64,000 nt of DNA. It comes from Tetrahymena thermophila SB210 (lineage: Eukaryota; Ciliophora; Oligohymenophorea; Hymenostomatida; Tetrahymenidae). Below, piece after piece: positions 6,301 through 52,100 of the stretch. The notes beneath the pieces were generated by a model. It worked only from the letters and a program-made list of their open reading frames with translations. It had not been told where the DNA came from and did no database searches. Made by a program: the position numbers and the translations under genes. How positions within the stretch are numbered: the stretch's first letter is position 1; each line of letters starts with the position of its first letter. The stretch lies in assembly GCF_000189635.1 (NCBI RefSeq), contig NW_002476387.1, forward strand, positions 434,001 through 498,000. The letters are read 5' to 3'.

Positions 6301-9300
6301 CTCTTAGCCCTATTAAATTATTGTATTAAAATCAAATTAAAATTAACGTTTTTAAAGTAACTTACTTCATTTCTAGAAGTCTCTATTCAGAAACCTGCAT
6401 AGATAATTCTATAATTCTTTAGTGGAGTTCATCAGGATATTCATTTTAAAGATCTCTTTTGAGTGTGTCGAATTGTTATTCAAGAGCTTCGAAATAATCA
6501 CACTTAACTGAAATAAAAGTGAAAAGATAAATAAAGATAGATTATGGAAAAAATAAATTATTACTAGCTAATTCATGATTTTCATCTCTAAGTTTCTTAT
6601 TTTATATTTCTAAATTCATTTTCATTGATGATAATTCATTAATACGAGAGTACATTTCATCTATTTTACTCATGTTGATAGTTGGAAGTATTCTAGATCT
6701 TAAATCTGTAATTAAGTCCTCATACTCAGTAATCTTTTAACGTAAAATTTCACGAGTTTCAATGGCATCATCTTTGCTTTCAGCTAATTCATGTTCCAAT
6801 ATTTGCACTTCATATTATTACTTTTCATAGTCATGGATAAGATTATCGTATTTAATATTGGTTTAAGCCTAATTAAACCTTGAAACCATAAGAGAGTGTT
6901 AAAGTTTACCAACAACAGCCTTCTCGTCAGATAAAGATTGAAGATCTTTAATTGTTTCATGTAGATGCTCGGTTTCGAATTTCTTTCTCTCTAAGGTAAT
7001 CAATAAATCCTTGACTTAGTTACTTGAGAACTCATGCAAATCTTTAAGAATTCTATTTTAGCTTCTCAATTCAACATTTTCCTTGAGAACTCTCTTATTT
7101 AAATTATGAATTTATTTAGCTCTAAATTTGGTTTCACTTCCTTAAATGATATTTAAATATTTATAATTCAATCTTTGAGCTTCATTGTATTTTTTCATAA
7201 TACTGAGAATTTCACCTTCTCTCTCATTTAATCTTTTAATACAATATTTATTTAATTATTCAATTTTTATTAAAAATTTTATTTACTGAAGTTGAATTCT
7301 TGCATTTTCTTTCTTTGACAAGTTGAGAGAATACATCAAAGTGTCGCATCTATTAAGAAGGTTCTTTTCTTTGATTTCCATTAAACTTATCTTCATTTCC
7401 AGACGAGCCTCTTTAGGTAGTGCTTGTATATCTTAGTTTTCAACATTATCATAGCTTGTATGCTACTTTTGCATTTCTTTAATTTTATCACTGATTTTCT
7501 TCATTTTTTATATTTTATTTTTCTCAACTGTTGCTTATTTAATGTAGTTCAAAAGCTCATTGTATTCAATGTAGCCATTGCTATCATTATCTATATCACG
7601 GAACAATTACTTAATTTATTCATCACTTATATCAACTTTGAGGTTTTCAAATAAGCCTTATTAAAATAAAACATGAAATTCAAATTTAAAACAAGCAAAT
7701 AAATTCTTATTTTACCTTTAAATTCTTTTAAAGATATTTTTTCATCTCCACTGTTATCAATGTAATTGTATAAATCTTTAATATATTAGCCTTGCTAATG
7801 TATAGCTTCATCAATTTTTAAAACTAATTGCTTTTACCAGCTCAACTCCTCTACATTCATTAATATTTATTATCTATTTTTATATTAAATGGTTATAAAT
7901 TAATTCTTCAAATATCATTAATTTATTTATTTACCTCATGACATCTTATATTATATTTTCAAAGAGTGCGTGGAATTCACTATATGTGATTTTTCCGTCT
8001 CCAGAAGTATCAGCAATCTTAAAAACATAATCTACTGTATCAGCTTCTATGTCTTTAATAAGAGATTGCAGAGTAACTAGCATTTCATCCTTAGTAACTT
8101 CACCGCTGCGATCTTTATCAAAAGCTTAGAAAGCATCACTAATGCTTAAACCTGCTTGCTACATTTTTTCCCACAAAGTGAAAATTACTTATTCCTATGA
8201 TTTTCTTATTGTTAGTCCTTATCTCCTCATTTTTCTTGAAAATTCTTTTAAATCAATTTTGTTGTTACCATCGAAGTCCATAAATCTATTATTATAAAAG
8301 GAAGATCAATAATTTTCATTTATTAAAATTAATAATATCTCATACCTAAACAGAATTTCTATCTCTTGATTGCTGAAATCTACCTTAAGTTTTCTCATAG
8401 CTAGCTAAAATTCTGATGGATTGAGTTCACCATCTCTATTATCATCAATTTAAGCAAATACTTGCATAGGAGAAATATTTTTTTGTTACATTTTCTAAAC
8501 TAATTTTTGCATTGCTTACTGATATCTCCTAAAGCTTTAGTCTGACATTTCAAGCATTTTCTTGATTAATTCAGTTTCTAGTTGTAACTCAACCATTTCA
8601 TCTTCCATAATTCTTATCTTAGTGTTTCTCTCATCTAATTCTCTTTCATAATCTAAAATAATTAATTAATAAATACAAAATTAATACGTTTTTGATTGAT
8701 TAATCTTACTTTTTAATTTTTATATTTAGGAGAGAAGAGCAGTATTCTTTTCCTTTATATTGGCAAGATCATCTTATGATTTTTCAAACTTATTTCTTAA
8801 AATGTTGTGCTTAGACTTAGAGACGGAGTTTTAACATTCTTAAAGCAGTACCTTAAGGTAATGGGAAGCCTTCTTCTTCCAGTCTAATAAACTATGAATT
8901 TTTTATATAAGCTGTTCTTCTTTATTTCTAAAGTCAACATTCATATTTTTATATGACTCACTGAGCTCGTTGTATTCGTCCTACAAACATGAATACTTTC
9001 TTGATATCCTATCAATTTAAAAATTTAAATAAGAATTTTTAATAACGAAAATAATAAATTACTTAATTAAAGTCACGTCTAATTTTGAAATTTTATGTGT
9101 TAATTCTGCTATTTTTTATAGTTACAAATTTTTATCATTTTTCATATGAAGTTCATTCATTTTTTTATATTCATTCAGTTCTTCTTTTAATTTTTAAACT
9201 TCCGCAGTTTTATCTCCTAATTACGAGTCATAAATTTTAATATTTTCTTTTAACTTTGTTGTTTCTTCATAGTATTTTTCATATAAATTATCTTAAACAC

Positions 9301-11148
9301 GCAGACAATTTTATAGTTGTCTTTTCATTTCTTCAACCTCCATTTCCATATTTTTATATTCTTCTTCCTTTACTTTAAGCATTTTCATACTTTCTAAATT
9401 CATAACTTAAAGTTATGCAATTTAATATTTAGCCAAAACTGTATCGAAACCTACTCCAGAGTACAACTCAAAGATATCAGCAGGTATCATTTGTTTGAAT
9501 TTGAAGCTCTTAACTTGTGAAATATCTTCCCAATCACCAAAAGATCCAGGCATAGGTTAAGGTGGTCTGGCTAAGTTAGACTAGTTTCCTTATAATCTAG
9601 CAATTTATTCAGGATTTCCTTGTTACTACTTATCAGCAGGATATCTTCCTCCATTCTTTTTTATTTCTTCGAGTAGTTCGTTAACTTTAGCTAGCATCTA
9701 TTTGAGCTACTCATTCTAAAATGTAAGATTCTTAATATCATCAGCATTCTTTTAAAAATGCAAAAAAAAAAAAAATTAACCATAAAAAATCAAACAAAAT
9801 TAAAATATTAATATAACAACTTCTTTCTATCAATAATATTTAATTAGAATTATTTTACAAATAACATAAAAAGTATTGAATTAAATATGATAAATAATCA
9901 TAATTCATTTCTTTTTTATAAGTCCATTTAATTAACGCAATTAATTTACATAGTGAGAAGCTGGAATATGAGAAGCCATGTATGTACTATCATTTCTAAA
10001 GTTGGAATCCCTTTCGTATTATTTTAGTCTTTCTTGTAAGTCCTTAATAATCATATCCTTTTCGTGCATCTTAGAAGAATCTCCATGCATTTTTGTATTA
10101 GGAAGCTAATTAATAATATGATCTGCTACATACTGATCTAACTTCTCCCTATAATTTTGATTTAATTTTGTTGTTGAATTTGCTAAATAATTTCATTTTG
10201 GATTTCAAAAATATAATCTATGAAAATCTTTTTAAATTTAAAAAATAAATAAAAGCCAAATCTTATAATTACAATTATTCCTTGGTGAGATTTTTATAAC
10301 GTTCACCTTTAGGACGTTGATCATAGAGGTTAGAGAGAGTTCTCAATCTATTTCTCAATTGAAGACGCTCCGCTTCAAGCTCCTCATTAAGTTTTTCTAA
10401 GGTTCTATTTTAAGCCTTATAATCTTCGATTTGATGCATTTCAGCGATTTTAATTTCTTCCAAGTTAAAACCATAATTCTCAGGGACTTGTGCAAGTCTT
10501 CTCAAAACTCTATTTTCAGCCAAGATGTTATCCATCTTTTCACTGAGTTGTGAGAACTTTTGTCTCTCAGCTTCTAATTTCTTTTTGTATGAATTCTCAG
10601 TTTCATTTTATTCCTTTTAATCTTATTCCCATTTATTTTCATTAAACTCAGGGCCTTCCTATCTCCTCTTCAAATTTTTCAATTCTCTTCTTAAATTTAA
10701 AATTTGCTAGTCCTTGCTATTAATTTCTTCCAAATAAGCTTTTATTTGGTTGTTGTAATTAACGTTTTGGTTTTTTAGTATATTAAGCTCTTGGATTGTT
10801 TGATCATATTTTGCCTTTTCAAATTCACTGACTTTTTTTTCAGCTTCTTCTATAAGGGCTTTTGTTTTCTATTTTATTCTCTCACCTTAAAGTGCAGCCT
10901 CTTAGAATTCATCGCACTCCTGTAAATAGCATTCAATTTAAATTAAATAAAAGAGGATTTATCATTTTTTTAATTTTATGTGTAATATTAAAGTGAAAAT
11001 TATGAGAGATAATATATTTGAATTAAATTACTTTGCTAAGCTTGATATTTGCATCTTCGAGAGCAATATTTTACTATTTGATTTCCTCATACTTTTCCTT
11101 CATAAGCTCAAGCTCTTTCCTGAGCCTGAATACTTCATTGTTACTCAT
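3332..11148 (-). CDS. CEP290: CEP290-like giant coiled-coil protein with EF-hand array
   Basis: Multi-exon gene of roughly 2,200 residues, starting at ATG 11148 (MSNNEVFRLRKELELMKEKY) and ending at TGA 3332-3334 (KKVPSRK-stop). The first exon ends near 11030 at GTAATT and the next starts near 10922. Almost the whole protein is heptad-rich coiled coil. Near 10520-10440 the peptides RRLAQVPENYGFNLEEI and, further on, LNEELEAERLQLRNRLRTL match the order and character of the conserved 'ELRERxGLEP ... EIESLEEERLDL' stretch of CEP290, the transition-zone protein of cilia. The C-terminal exon carries LKFAKEQFDVQVQRLNRRI, also typical of the end of protist CEP290 proteins. Between the coiled coils, about 8480-7580 encodes six EF-hand-like loops (for example DIDNDSNGYIEY and DTSGDGKITYSEF). 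The expected role is linking doublet microtubules to the ciliary membrane. A different EF-hand/coiled-coil basal-body protein is the main alternative. Confidence 0.68.
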
Positions 11149-13139: not shown

Positions 13140-14630
13140 ATGATCATTAGCAGATTCTTATAGAAGACATTAAATTTTAAAGCTTAAAAAATATTGTATC
13201 CAAAGATTTTTAATTACAAATAAAATTAGCAGGTGTGCTTATTTTAGGTGAATAAATTTAGAATTTCTGAAGAAATTCATGATAAATTGGATTTTTTAGA
13301 GTGTATTTAAAACTATAAAGATATTCTATAGCATGACGAAAGAGATTTAACTACTTTAAATAACTTAGCAACTCTTTATTTTAACCATTAATGCTACACA
13401 GAGGCTCATACACTTTTTGAAAAATGTATTGAAGTAGATCCTACCTTTTCTTCTGCTTATACACATTTAGCTAGGATTTATATAGAGTAGAATTAAATTG
13501 ATTTAGCAGTAGAACTACTCAATAAAAATATTTCTTACAATAAATAAAGTATTGAAACTATTTTCTTATTGGGATTAATTGATTTAAAACAATAAAAATA
13601 TGACTTTGGAATTAAGAAGTTATACGAATGCATAAATCTTAATCCTGATCATACAGAAAGCTACCTTCAACTAGGGATAGGTTATCGTAAAATTAAAAAT
13701 TACTCAAAATCAATCTAATACCTGAATTAGTATTTGAATTTAACATCCGACAAATCTGAAGCTCATTACCAGCTGGCCCTTACTTATGAAGATCAAAACG
13801 AATTAAGAGATGCTATCAAATGTTACAAAAAAGCTTTAGAATATAATCCTAATAATTATAAAGCATATAAAAATATTACAATGGCTTACATAGAGCTGAA
13901 AAAATTTGATAAAGCAAACAAATATTTAAGTAAAGTACCTAAATAGCTATAAGATGATTTCGATTTTTTATCAGCAACTGGTTATATGCTTGAATAAGAT
14001 GGTAAGTATGAAGAAGCAGCTGCTTATTATGAATAATTTGGTGAAAAATTTTAAAAAGATTACAAATTTTATTTAAGTTTGGGAAATTGCTATTTAAAAA
14101 TGGGCTAGTTTGATTTGGCAGAGAATATGTATAGCGAAGGACTGATGCTATCACCTGAATATTTTTATATTGGTCTAGCAGAAGTTTGTGTAGTTAAAAA
14201 AAAATATTAATAGGCTATTTAATACTTAGAAAACGCAAGCGATATAGATCCTGATAATAGAGATATTTATTTAAAAATAAGTAAAATTTATGAGGCTTAA
14301 GGCCAAATATTTGAAGCAATATAGTATTCTTACTAAGTCATGGAAATTACACCTAATGACTTAGATATTATAATCAGATTATCTTAATTACATCACTAAG
14401 ATGGTAATGCTGAATTAGCTGCTTAGTTCATGAAAAAAGCCATAGAGTTAGAACCTTCAAATCCTGATTTGTATTATGAATATGGAATATTAATACAAGA
14501 ATTAGGATTTGACGAAGAAGCAGAGGAATATTTCAAAAAAACTCTTAGTATTAATAACCACTACCCATAGCTATTTAAATTTAGCTAAGAATTAGCTAGA
14601 AGAGAGGCTGGTTTAGAATAACCTAATTGA
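13140..14630 (+). CDS. TPR-repeat protein, possibly mitochondrial
   Basis: A single intronless frame of 497 codons from ATG 13140 to TGA 14628-14630. From about residue 50 the protein is a continuous tetratricopeptide-repeat solenoid: repeats of about 34 residues with the W/L-G-Y-A-F-A-P pattern, such as the segment around AHYQLALTYEDQNELRDAI followed by CYKKALEYNPNN, and AELAAQFMKKAIELEPSNP. Roughly ten to twelve repeats can be counted, with no catalytic domain. TPR solenoids bind peptides and scaffold complexes. The N-terminus (MIISRFLQKTLNFKAQK...) is basic, free of acidic residues and amphipathic, like a mitochondrial targeting sequence; that is inference. It ends shortly after the last repeat with a degenerate helix (AGLEQPN). 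The specific orthologue is not recognised. Confidence 0.85.
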
Positions 14631-20888: not shown

Positions 20889-23625
20889 ATGGATTTTTAA
20901 GACTTCTATGCTAACTATTTGCGCTAATAGCAAATATAGAAAGCATGTGACAATATGAAATAAGATGAAGTTGATTACGATATGTCTCAGGCTAATACCT
21001 TATCAAACTATACTAGTAGGACAACAATAAATTCTAATTTTAATTAAAACTAGTATCCAATGCAGGATGAATCATCTACATAAACCCTGTTGTTGAATGG
21101 ATCTAACTAAAATCAAAAAGGAATAGTAGGTTTCACTAATAATAACTTAAAGAATTAACAAAAGCTTCTTGATGTAAATAACTAAAGAGTCTTTGGAAGA
21201 GAACTCATAAATATTGATCAAGAAAGGACCTTTGCATAAAATAACATATAAGTAAAATAAATTTCACATTTATACATTATTTTAAATTGAGTAAGTATTT
21301 AATCATTTTATTAATACAATTTTATTTTACAGAATAATAGCAAGAATCAATAGAGCTAGAATTATTCTAAGCCTACTGGATATTCATAAATTGAGAAATA
21401 AAATTACGCCTAAACATGCAACAACAATAACAAATAATTGAGTGATTAAAATAATTTACAATAATAAAATAATCTTAATCAAATAAAATGTAACATGTCT
21501 GTAGAATGTGATGGTCAAAATTTAAAAGGAGAAAATTAATAAAAATTAATTGATGTTAATAATTAAAGAGTCTTTGGTAGAGATATTGCGAACGTCGATC
21601 AAGAAAGAACATTTTCATAAAATAATATGCAAGTAAAATTTCATTAAAAATCATAAGCCAAATCATTTACTAATCAAATTTATTTTGTTTTACAGAATAG
21701 TTGCAAAATTCAGTAAAGTCAGAATTATGCAAAACCTATGGGGTACACAAAGATAGAAAAGCAGAATTATATGTAAGTTCAAAATAAAGATGAAAATTAA
21801 ATCTACGCTAATCATACTAAGAACAATATGTATGTTGAATATGATGGTTAAAATCAATAAAAACTTGCTAATCCCAACAGTTAGCGCGTTTATGCCAAAG
21901 AAACAACAATTTCTGACCAAGAAAGACTGCAACAATAAAATAATATTCAAGTAAAATTAATTCATTTTAATTCAAAAAATATTTTTTTTTACAAATTTAA
22001 ATAATTTATTTATTTATTTAAAGAATAATTTCAAGTCTCAACAAAACTAGAACTTTGCAAAGCCACTTGGATATACTAAATTAGATAAGTAAAACGTTTA
22101 AAACAATAACCAATTAGAATAAAATAGCTAACAATAAAGTAACTGCTTCAATTAACTAAAACGTCACATGTCTCTTGAATGCATCAATGGTGATGACAAC
22201 CAAAATATAAAATGTGAGAGCAACTTCTATTCTCGTAATAGTATGGCAAGCTAATAAATGTAAGATGAAAATTATCATGCGGCTTCAAATGGATTTTCCA
22301 ACAACAACAACACCTATAAAGCTAATACTTGCAAAGCTTCTTACGATAAAGAGAATTTCAATCAAATATCAACTGGATTTAGTGGATTAACTTAGTCAGT
22401 TCAATAAAATATAACTTTTAGATAAAAAAATGTGATGGATGTCGAAAACTCTCAACAATCTCATGCAACCACTTACAGGTCTTTGGAAAGAAAATAAGTA
22501 GTTGAATACACCTTCCCTAAAGACACACTTCAAAAAGATCCTATTTACTAATACGCAAGGACAATTTTTGATTATCTACGTAGCAACGAAGTAATAAATT
22601 ATTTCTTTAAAACTATTTTATTCAAAAGTTTGTTTATTTTAGAATGAATTTTTATATATTTTTGGTTTATTTATCAAAAGGAAGCGTATTGCGCTAAAGG
22701 GACTATGAACAAAGTGTAAGATGAAATAACTGCTAGAATGAGAGCTATTATGGTAGACTGGATAGTTGATGTGCATCTCAAATTTAAGCTCTTACCTGAC
22801 ACACTATATTTGACTATTAATTTGATCGACAGATATATTGAAAGAAAGTAAATTTCCAAAGATAGATTACAACTTCTAGGTGCTACTTCAATGTTCATAG
22901 CTTGTAAATTTGAAGAAATTTATCCACCTGAGATTAATGACTTTGTGTTTATATGTGATAGTCTCTATACAAAGGAATAAATATTATAAATGGAGGGTGA
23001 ATTAATCACAGCAATTAATTTTGATTTAACTTACACCAGTCCTTTACGTTTTCTTAACAGATATAGTTACCTGAATGAATCCACTGAAGTATAATACTAT
23101 TGTGCACAATATCTTTTAGAGCTCTCTCTAATTGAGTATAAAATGACTGAGTATTCTTCATCAAACTAAGCTGCAAGTGCACTATATTTAGTAAATAAAA
23201 TATTTGACTAACCATGGAGTGAAGAGCTTCGCAACCAATCCCACTATGATTAGTCTTCTCTTAAAAAATGCGCTAAAGATATGTACGCTCTTCTTTAAAA
23301 GGCAAATGAGTTCTAATACAAGTATCAGATTTAGGTTGCAGAGTATGAAAATTAAAAATAACTACAGATGGCTTAATTAAAACAATGGTATAACCTTGAA
23401 AAGTCTAGACTAGAATAAGAATAGAATTTTGTCTAAGATCATCACGAATAATTAGAAATAGACTACGACCAAAAGAGAAAAGAAATAGAAGCTAAATTCA
23501 AAGAAATCAAAGGCTAATTACTATGCAATAATAAAAACTTAGTAGCAATTATCCGTAAATTTTCTCTTGCTGAATTCAAAGAGCCTGCTAAATTTCTGTT
23601 TTGCCTAGAGTATCCTTTGCCCTGA
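20889..23625 (+). CDS. B-type cyclin with repeated N-terminal exons
   Basis: Five exons: 20889-21251, 21333-21632, 21696-21950, 22024-22590, 22681-23625, all joined in phase 0. The first cyclin box lies in exon 5: [18 protein letters not shown] is the classic cyclin A/B signature, followed by [18 protein letters not shown] and [12 protein letters not shown]. It is preceded by the usual helix [11 protein letters not shown]. The second, helical cyclin fold ([12 protein letters not shown] onward) is also present. A Gln-rich coiled tail follows and the protein ends at TGA 23623. Cyclins activate CDKs for mitosis or meiosis. The long Asn/Gln-rich N-terminus (exons 1-4) contains repeated units ending in QRVFGRE/D...DQER. 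KEN-like and RxxL-like sequences occur there but were not proven degrons. Total length is about 810 residues, far longer than the 400-450 usual for B cyclins, because of these repeats. Confidence 0.93.
21163..22082 (+). repeat. tandemly duplicated exon units in cyclin gene
   Basis: The end of exon 1, all of exons 2 and 3, and the start of exon 4 are diverged copies of one unit. Each unit begins after the intron with Asn-rich sequence and KPxGY(S/T) ([39 protein letters not shown]). Each ends with [17 protein letters not shown] or a variant ([30 protein letters not shown]) and QNN(I/M)Q, directly before a GTAAAAT donor. Introns are all phase 0 and 63-81 nt long, so whole exon-plus-intron units can be gained or lost without breaking the frame. 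Confidence 0.88.
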
Positions 23626-49135: not shown

Positions 49136-52100
49136 ATGAGACGGTAAAATAACCAATAACCATAACAATAGATGCAAAGAAATATGAACCAATAAATAAA
49201 AGGTTAATAGAATTAGTATGACTATGAATATGAATAAGAAGATGATGATGATATGGATGATTAGGAAGGATATGGTGAAGATGAGGAAGGCGAATATGTA
49301 TTCGAAAATGAAGAAGAATATTTGAGATATTAGGCTATGAGAGAATATGAATTAGCTCAATAAGGAATTCATTTAGTTGAATAGGGCCCTGATTATGAAC
49401 CTACAGAAGAAGGTATTCAATAAAAATTAATCTTTTATAAAAATTGCTGGTTCATTTAATTTTACAATCAAACTAAAATAACTCATTTTTTAATGAGATT
49501 CATCACAACTTTTTTAAACAAAAGAAATACATGCGTACGCTGAATTTTTAGGAATGAATTTAGAAGAAGATTAAGAATTTTTTGATATAGCAAGAGAGGG
49601 ATTGATAGCACCTTTACCAGAAGGTTGGTGTTTTGCATAAGTTGATGGAGAAGATGCAACTTATTTTTATTGCAGATAAACAGAAGAACTTTTTGAAGAA
49701 AATCCTAATGATGAATTATTTAAATAGAAGTTTTAAGATGCAAAGAGATTAAAGGAAATTAAAAAGTAAAGAGAAAACCCACCAGCAGCTGCTTCAAAAA
49801 AGCGCTCTAAACTTTAAAACTTAATCGATCAATACTCAAATAACGATGAGGAGGGTAAAACAGATGCTGGAAAATAAAATATGAAATCATAATAAATTAC
49901 AAATGTGAATATAAGTAACTTGGATTCTTCTGCCATAACAAGTAATAAAAATAGCGTGATTGGACAAACAGGAAAAACTAAGAATGAATTAAATTCATTA
50001 AATAACATAGTAGGATAGTAAACGTCTAAGAACCTGTAGTCAAAGCAAAATAGTGCTTTAGAAATAAGCTAATCTTAAAGCAATAACCTTGAAAGTTTGA
50101 CGAATGCTAAAACTGTGAATACTAAAAACAAATTAACACCACTTGAACCCTTAAATGAAAAACTTTCAAAAGAAATGTCTTAGAGTAGACCTTCTTCTAA
50201 TATTAATTTAGGAAAGAAAGAAAGTGAGTATGATTTTGATGAAGATGAGCATGCTTTTTTATAGTCTGACGATGATGAATAAGAAGAAGAAGATAAAAAA
50301 AGTAAGCAGTCATCAAATCTACCTAATGAAAAGGTTTCTATACTTGATACTAAAAGCCAAAATAGCAGACCACCTTCAGCTTAATAAGATAAAAGCAAAC
50401 AAGTCAGTAAAGCAGCCAGTTAAGTTGTAACAGAAAAACCACAGTCTAAAATATTAAATAGTGATAAAACTTTAACCAAGAAAGAAAGTTCATCTAAAAT
50501 TCTTTAAAATAATATTGTTGAAGAACTAGAAGAGGTTAATCTTGAAGAAATTTAGAAGCAGGATATTTCTAAAAACTTGAATGCATAAAAATTAAATCCA
50601 TTATCTGATAAGAAACCTCCTTCTCTTATTAAACCTTTAGAGAAAAAACCATCAAAAGAAATAGTCACATCTTAAAAAGAAAGTACATCTAAAAAAAATA
50701 CATTAAAAGACATACCAAGCATTTTAGAGGTATCTGACTAAAAAATATTGGAATCAAGCTAAAAATTAGAAGGAAAGAATTTTAATATGATAGAAAATCA
50801 ATGTATTTATTTTTTATTTTAGTTCTTGTTGAATTTATTTATTTTTATTAGAAAAATCTAAGGAAATAAAAAATGAAGTCAAAAAAGAAATATAAGAAAT
50901 TGATAATTAAAATATTTAAAAAAGTTAATCTAAAAATATAGAACATAAAGAAAAAGAGGATTTTGATAAAAACTACTTTTCTTCTAGTCAGAAATACCAG
51001 TCAGTAGAATCATAAAAAAAGACAGATAATTCAAAAAGCAACGAATACAATTTAACCAAAGAATTTGAAGATGCTGAAAATAATACTTACACTTATAGTA
51101 AAGAGGAAAGCTTAAGTTAGGATGACATTGACAACAAAAATATTCGAAATTAAGAATTTAGCCCAAACATAAATTATATTCCCTCATAGAGTGCTTCTAA
51201 AGATAAGAATTCTTAGAATAAAAAATTGATAAAGATAGAAGAAAACCTAAATGAAAATGAATCTGATTTGTTCTAAGACAAATAACAGGTAAAAAGAGAT
51301 TTTAATATCGAGGCGTAAGATTTCTAAGATTTTTAAGAAGAAGAAAATGAGAATGAAACAGTGGAAATAGACATATAAAGCTTATAGTTTGAAGAGTAAT
51401 TAAATATCTAAGCATACATAGAAGAAAAAGAAAATGAGCTAAACAAAAAGCTAGCTTTTTATGAAAGAGATTATAGAGAAAAATAGATCAGTTTTAATAA
51501 TTTAATTTAGTAGTAAAGATTTTCTAATTTTGATAGTGTTGATGTTGCTAGAAAAAGAGTTGACTATCTTCAACAAAAAGAAAAAACAAGAATTAGAGAG
51601 AAGATTTTAAACGAAATGCAAGCTAAAGAAGATGAAGAACTTAGAAAAATGTAATCTAAGCTAGATGAAGCTGGAAAAATATGGAAAGAAGAAGAAAATT
51701 TCAAAGTAGAGTTGAAAGTGAGTGAATTCAACAATATTTTTAAAGATAAATATTTTAAAAAACTTGAGTAACATGAAAGAATTATTAAAAATCTAAAAGG
51801 AATAATTTCTAAAAATGAGATTATTTACTCACAGTAGAGAAATTAATTAAAAGAGAAATTTGATTCTGCATATAGAGCTGCTCTTTTTTAATAAGCTTCA
51901 GCAAAGCATTAATAAGAATTAGCTTTGCTTGAAAAAGATTTTGAAACAGATAAATAAGATGCTGTAAACTATTTTGAAAATGAATTTGAGAGGACAAAAC
52001 AAGTAATTTTTTAACAAAAAAAGCTAATTAAACTTTAAATATTGATAATTTTATAAACAGCTTGAAGCGGATGAATTATAGAAACAAAAAATAAACATAA

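Follow-up and report, generated by a model that had tools for sequence, protein, structure and literature searches.

Destruction boxes (D-boxes) of cyclins lie in the N-terminal region of the protein. In excerpts of two papers, the key residues of the D-box are R1, L4, and N9 with I, L, or V at position 7, and consensus D-box peptides have D at position 6 (PMC12401543, PMC8764033). APC/C substrates with several degrons, such as Hsl1 with a D-box and a KEN box, cyclin A2 with D1/D2, and Acm1, are also described in excerpts (PMC8764033, PMC9289945); in Hsl1, D and KEN together lead to a large gain in affinity (PMC8764033), and an excerpted review of APC/C degrons states that the same-type degron repeats present in many substrates remain unexplained (PMC9289945). 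Tandem intragenic duplication of exons together with introns is known from Tetrahymena itself, where, according to an excerpt, many LRR genes carry arrays of exactly 90-bp exons with phase-2 introns (PMC6564038).

The cyclin gene analyzed here resembles the mitotic cyclins with an APC/C D-box (RxxLxxxxN) in that a core with R1, an acidic residue at 6, an aliphatic residue at 7, and N9 occurs, at equal spacing, N-terminally in an A/B-type cyclin. It differs from them by Gly in place of Leu4, Phe at position 3, and Arg/Gln at position 5, as well as by the triplication of the module, a candidate degron, as an exon–intron unit. As in the multi-degron substrates, more than one degron-like motif is present in one N-terminal tail along with KEN; unlike Hsl1, cyclin A2, and Acm1, as these are excerpted, the cyclin has multiplied the same motif by tandem DNA duplication including an intron (PMC8764033, PMC9289945). 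With the LRR arrays of the excerpt it shares the genus and the type of duplication, but three apparently old units with phase-0 introns in one gene stand against the many LRR genes (PMC6564038). A literature search covering titles and abstract openings, with few subscription journals, yielded no ciliate cyclin destruction box, D-box variant, or repeat of this kind.

Gene Model and Identity of the Cyclin

The window, i.e., the whole stretch of 64,000 nt analyzed, is part of a genome of 101 Mb in 445 contigs. Together with the ciliate code, a telomerase RNA that appears identical to that of T. thermophila makes this species the probable source. The predicted, sequence-based gene model of the cyclin (20889..23625, plus strand) consisted of five exons (20889-21251, 21333-21632, 21696-21950, 22024-22590, and 22681-23625) encoding 809 aa with the ciliate code (code 6), which fits the region. 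Introns 1–4 were 81, 63, 73, and 90 nt in length, and all of them were of phase 0. The donor GTAAAAT, originally predicted after each copy, was found after exons 1–3 but not after exon 4, which was followed by GTAATAA.

The Cyclin_N (residues 487-612) and Cyclin_C (residues 615-708) domains scored 155 and 69.5 bits against Pfam cut-offs of 23 and 22, respectively, and the closest solved structure was cyclin B1 (2.7e-50). With both domains above the cut-offs, the predicted product is an A/B-type cyclin, B-type-like. A charged tail of about 100 residues, rich in Gln, Glu, and Lys and coiled-coil-like by eye, was encoded 3′ of the second cyclin domain (23320-23622). To our knowledge, such a C-terminal tail is unusual for a B-type cyclin.

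Architecture of the Repeat

Self-comparison of both DNA and protein confirmed the original prediction that the cyclin N-terminus contains diverged tandem copies of one module. One unit, consisting of an A block (QRVFGR...DQER), a phase-0 intron, a B block (KPxGY), and a C block (MSVEC-like), was present three times. The consensus of A block copies 1 and 2 was QQKLxDVNNQRVFGRExxNxDQERxxxQNNxQ; that of the B block, after which a spacer of variable length follows, was NNxKxQQxQNYxKPxGYxxIEKQN; and that of the C block was MSVECDGQN.

All units are on the plus strand. Unit 1 (21153..21533) contained the A block, intron 1 (21252-21332), the B block (21333..21404), and the C block (21492..21521). Unit 2 (21534..21851) was organized in the same way, with intron 2 (21633-21695), the B block (21696..21767), and a C block running to 21854 (21825..21854). 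Unit 3 (21852..22199, 3′ limit approximate) was the most diverged, with an A block of decayed core, intron 3 (21951-22023), the B block (22024..22095), and a C block reading MSLEC (22165..22194); positions of the C blocks and of core 3 were counted on the sequence. The repeat, expected at 21163..22082, is real, but with the MSLEC block it extends to approximately 22199.

The D-box-like cores of units 1 and 2 were RVFGRELIN (21186..21212) and RVFGRDIAN (21567..21593). The third one (21885..21911, in the block reading QRVYAK) retained R1 and had changed at position 3 (to Y), position 4 (G to A), position 7 (aliphatic to T), and position 9 (N to I); judging from these residues, it is probably weak or inactive. 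KPxGY at the start and QRVFGR at the end, both predicted for the copies, were found in the units, but exon 4 has KPxGY only and the third block reads QRVYAK.

Exon 1 carried the A block only, and exon 4 carried the B and C blocks without A. Exons 2 and 3 aligned with each other over their full length, as in a tandem exon duplication, while exons 1 and 4 were part copies. Because the unit straddles an intron, the duplicated element was an exon–intron–exon junction and not a single exon, and for the same reason exons 2 and 3 look like whole copies. Simple copying of whole exons was rejected, since the unit limits fall inside exons.

Significance and Age of the Repeat

Direct repeats of 106 nt at 21153/21534/21852 had 78% and 62% DNA identity to the first copy, so that the A blocks of units 1 and 2 were the closest (78%, versus 62% between units 1 and 3); those of 88 nt at 21319/21682/22010 had 73% and 67%. 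The best ungapped 106-nt self-match comprised 83 identical bases, while 100 dinucleotide shuffles gave a mean of 55.8 and a maximum of 60. At the protein level, exon pairs 1-2, 1-3, 2-3, 2-4, and 3-4 each scored above all 1000 shuffles and remained above all of them with every N and Q masked, although the margin of masked pair 1-3 was narrow (32 versus a shuffle maximum of 31). Exons 1 and 4 showed no significant protein similarity (580/1000 shuffles reached the score, 611/1000 after masking), which is expected because exon 1 has only the A block and exon 4 only the B and C blocks. Similarity confined to low-complexity Asn/Gln, which had been named as an outcome that would speak against the array, was rejected by the masked shuffles for five of the six exon pairs.

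The A block pairs had dN values of 0.13, 0.38, and 0.41 with dS of 1.85, not computable, and 2.79; for the B block pairs, dN was 0.14, 0.28, and 0.18 with dS not computable, 1.37, and not computable. These dS estimates are short and rough, as each comparison included 13–21 synonymous sites and three of the six values were not computable. With synonymous sites near saturation and proteins alike, the copies are read as old and selected: the array looks maintained at the protein level rather than recently expanded.

The A Core in Sister Cyclins

The genome contained 25 Cyclin_N matches (10 plus-strand and 15 minus-strand loci). We compared seven paralogues (L042-L048), the strongest cyclin-core matches after the focal gene from 13 matches, using a 9-residue profile built from focal cores 1 and 2 only (self-scores 40 and 40.5); 88 overlapping stretches of the 64,000-nt window served as background, with a 9-residue maximum of 25.0. 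Upstream of the cyclin box, scores of 34.0 (L045, RVFGQELSN), 32.5 (L042, RAFGREIQN), and 31.5 (L044, RRFGRDLSN) were found, none of which was reached by any of the 88 background stretches. Second-best scores in these three genes were 14.5–16.5, indicating a single copy of the core in each. Three of the seven paralogues thus had a single core of the common form RxFG[RQ][DE][IL]xN upstream of the cyclin box, and R, F, G, and N were invariant across the five rows of the alignment (focal copies 1 and 2, L042, L044, and L045; copy 3, L043, and L046 were excluded). L046 was borderline (24.0, reached by 2/88 background stretches), and L043, L047, and L048 were not above background (reached by 27, 81, and 48 of 88, respectively). 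By eye, L043 has RVGKDITN, shorter by one residue.

Within 1.5 kb upstream of the 15 minus-strand Cyclin_N loci, no core scored more than 22.0 (background maximum 25.0), except in L018 (34.0), which is the same gene as L045. Among the 10 plus-strand loci, the FG core form was found only in L017 (the focal gene), L019, L020, and L023, and the canonical R..L..[ILVMF].[ND] was found in none of the 10. A 17-residue profile was noisy: L043 and L046 scored 24 and 23 (reached by 7/88 and 11/88 background stretches), L045 scored 28 where the background reached 27, and a score of 30.5 came from an L041 stretch that looks unrelated. This profile alone does not separate L043, L045, and L046 from background; its scores in L049, L050, L065, and L066 (24.0, 16.5, 22.5, and 25.5) were at background level.

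Genome-wide, the A-core pattern occurred at 14 sites versus 5 for the reversed control. Four of the 14 were in cyclin genes (two in the focal gene, one each in L042 and L044), a count that is not independent because the pattern was devised after L042 and L044 had been seen. The other 10 comprised two sites with in-frame TGA, two Ser-initial ones, two in frames of <50 residues, and four in longer frames. In all five paralogues examined, a phase-0 GTAA donor was found 14–30 codons into the scored stretch. Support for a shared intron position is weak because GTAA donors are common wherever DNA is AT-rich, a phase-2 donor competes in L044, and the stretches of L043 and L046 are doubtful. Repeat exon 2 had no match in plasmid sequences, and the cyclin box had no relative in a collection of genome contigs; both sets were free of other ciliate genomes.

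The B and C Blocks Elsewhere

The B pattern was found at four sites genome-wide (control 0), three in the focal gene and one on contig C283; the latter, in a short frame and lacking the remainder of the block, was taken as chance. The B profile gave best forward scores of 18.7–26.0 in the seven paralogues versus self-scores of 102–105 and reverse-strand bests of 5.3–30.0, none of them convincing, and 18.3–25.3 in four further stretches. The B block, a second conserved motif, was seen only in the focal gene in this genome search.

Look-alikes of the C block (M[SY][VL]E) may represent a further shared motif. LSMELD was found in an upstream open frame of L042, and MDVEN was present both in focal exon 4 and in L044, where it precedes the box.

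Likeness to the D-Box and Components of the APC/C

Four D-box columns are kept in the A core: R1, acidic 6, aliphatic 7, and N9. The D-box peptides RLPLGDISN and GRAALSDITN, in the excerpt giving them, have R1, D6, I7, and N9 in common with the Tetrahymena cores (PMC12401543). Both R1 and N9 were present in cores 1 and 2 and in L042, L044, and L045, and R1 only in core 3. At position 4, Leu was replaced by Gly (Ala in core 3) both in the focal gene and in L042, L044, and L045, with Phe at position 3; for this reason, we term the A core D-box-like and do not class it as a canonical D-box. With its core recurring as a single copy in three of the seven sister cyclins and matching four D-box columns, the QRVFGR block is a likely degron. 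The degradation link proposed earlier is supported as far as this resemblance goes.

A KEN tripeptide (YDKENFN), a candidate KEN box, was found in exon 4 (22348..22356, plus strand). By eye, KEN occurred in the N-terminal part of four of six cyclins (the focal gene, L043, L044, and L046); the tripeptides of L042 and L045 were discounted by eye because they did not fall within likely coding exons. Chance occurrences of KEN are frequent here, some open frame containing it in 7/10 plus-strand Cyclin_N loci. Full-length matches above the cut-off to the Cdc20/Fizzy WD40 family were found at five loci (L068-L072, on contigs C443, C332, C308, C280, and C158), one of them with an in-frame TGA in the match. 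One matched the PDB chain of Fizzy-related protein homolog (Cdh1) over the whole WD40 domain (5.6e-107). APC10 was found as three pieces on one contig. With five Cdc20/Fizzy loci, the complement of APC/C activators seems to be enlarged.

Interpretation of the Array

Our best explanation, to which we give even chances, is that duplicating the junction twice produced an array of D-box-like APC/C degrons serving faster or timed destruction. The ancestral gene would have had an exon 1–intron 1–exon 2 junction with a D-box-like degron just before the phase-0 intron. Two tandem duplications of this junction inside the cyclin gene, with unit 3 presumably splitting off first, would have given an N-terminus that is Asn/Gln-rich and probably disordered and contains two intact cores, a decayed one, and KEN further down. 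The intact cores may dock alternately, or jointly with KEN, on Cdc20/Cdh1 and APC10 of the APC/C, which would raise the effective affinity and change the speed or timing of destruction relative to the single-core sister cyclins. This explanation is weakened by the absence of the D-box-defining Leu4, the decay of core 3, and the borderline score of the core in L046 and its background level in L043, L047, and L048. The missing Leu4, in every copy and every paralogue with the core, speaks for a conserved ciliate cyclin docking motif that is not a degron and whose repetition would raise avidity for a partner such as a CDK regulator, a localization factor, or a phosphatase; Phe and Gly, invariant in the five aligned rows, are also not required by the D-box consensus. 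Docking of this kind is nevertheless rather unlikely in our estimate, as the four conserved columns coincide in spacing with R1, D6, I7, and N9 of the D-box and the motif is N-terminal.

Alternatively, the tandem duplication, lying in a disordered tail, may be neutral or nearly so, with copies that add no function and decay, copy 3 first. This would fit the lost key residues of core 3 and the varying spacer lengths; tandem exon arrays in Tetrahymena LRR genes are attributed, in an excerpt, to unequal crossing over (PMC6564038). We hold neutrality improbable in view of the low dN with near-saturated dS in the A and B blocks and of the likeness still seen between cores 1 and 2 and among the three B blocks. 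Alternative splicing was also considered: exons 2 and 3 would be cassettes that keep the frame, and isoforms would contain from one to three modules. All introns are of phase 0, exon ends are alike, and leaving out exon 2, exon 3, or both would preserve the reading frame; excerpted data for T. thermophila list 139 cassette exons and 832 intron retentions among 1,474 alternative events (PMC3274533). Even so, we regard a splicing role as very improbable: introns of this gene are 63–90 nt long, while those in cassette events average 279 bp, and mostly intron definition is reported, as excerpted, for T. thermophila (PMC3274533). The earlier view of each module as an exchangeable exon was not supported, as units begin and end within exons, key residues are missing from the third A core, and no A block is present in exon 4. 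The 63 nt of intron 2 (21633-21695) are a multiple of three with no in-frame TGA, and 21 residues would be gained in frame if it were retained. Retaining intron 1 would bring in an in-frame TGA, and retaining intron 3 would shift the frame.

Returning to the degron array, a broader reading can be proposed only tentatively: Tetrahymena mitotic cyclins may use a shifted-anchor D-box, RxFG[RQ][DE][IL]xN, instead of RxxLxxxxN, here multiplied together with the private KPxGY by junction duplication into a multivalent degron array that would set the destruction time relative to single-degron sisters. A cyclin with two intact cores and a decayed one next to single-core paralogues in a single genome, that of a ciliate probably amenable to laboratory genetics, makes copy number testable against destruction timing. 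If true, a D-box variant without Leu4 would show how far the degron code drifts while the receptor stays recognizable.

Other Open Frames in the Window

The frame at 49554-50876 (plus strand) has a start that is WW-domain-like by eye (LPEGWCFAQVDGEDATYFYCRQTEE), with no Pfam match at 0.001. An open frame at 13140-14630 (plus strand) encoded a protein of tetratricopeptide repeats (Pfam). A coiled-coil-looking frame was found at 8306-9697 (minus strand), with sub-threshold EF-hand matches near its end; it is, we presume, reminiscent of a centrosomal or ciliary protein.
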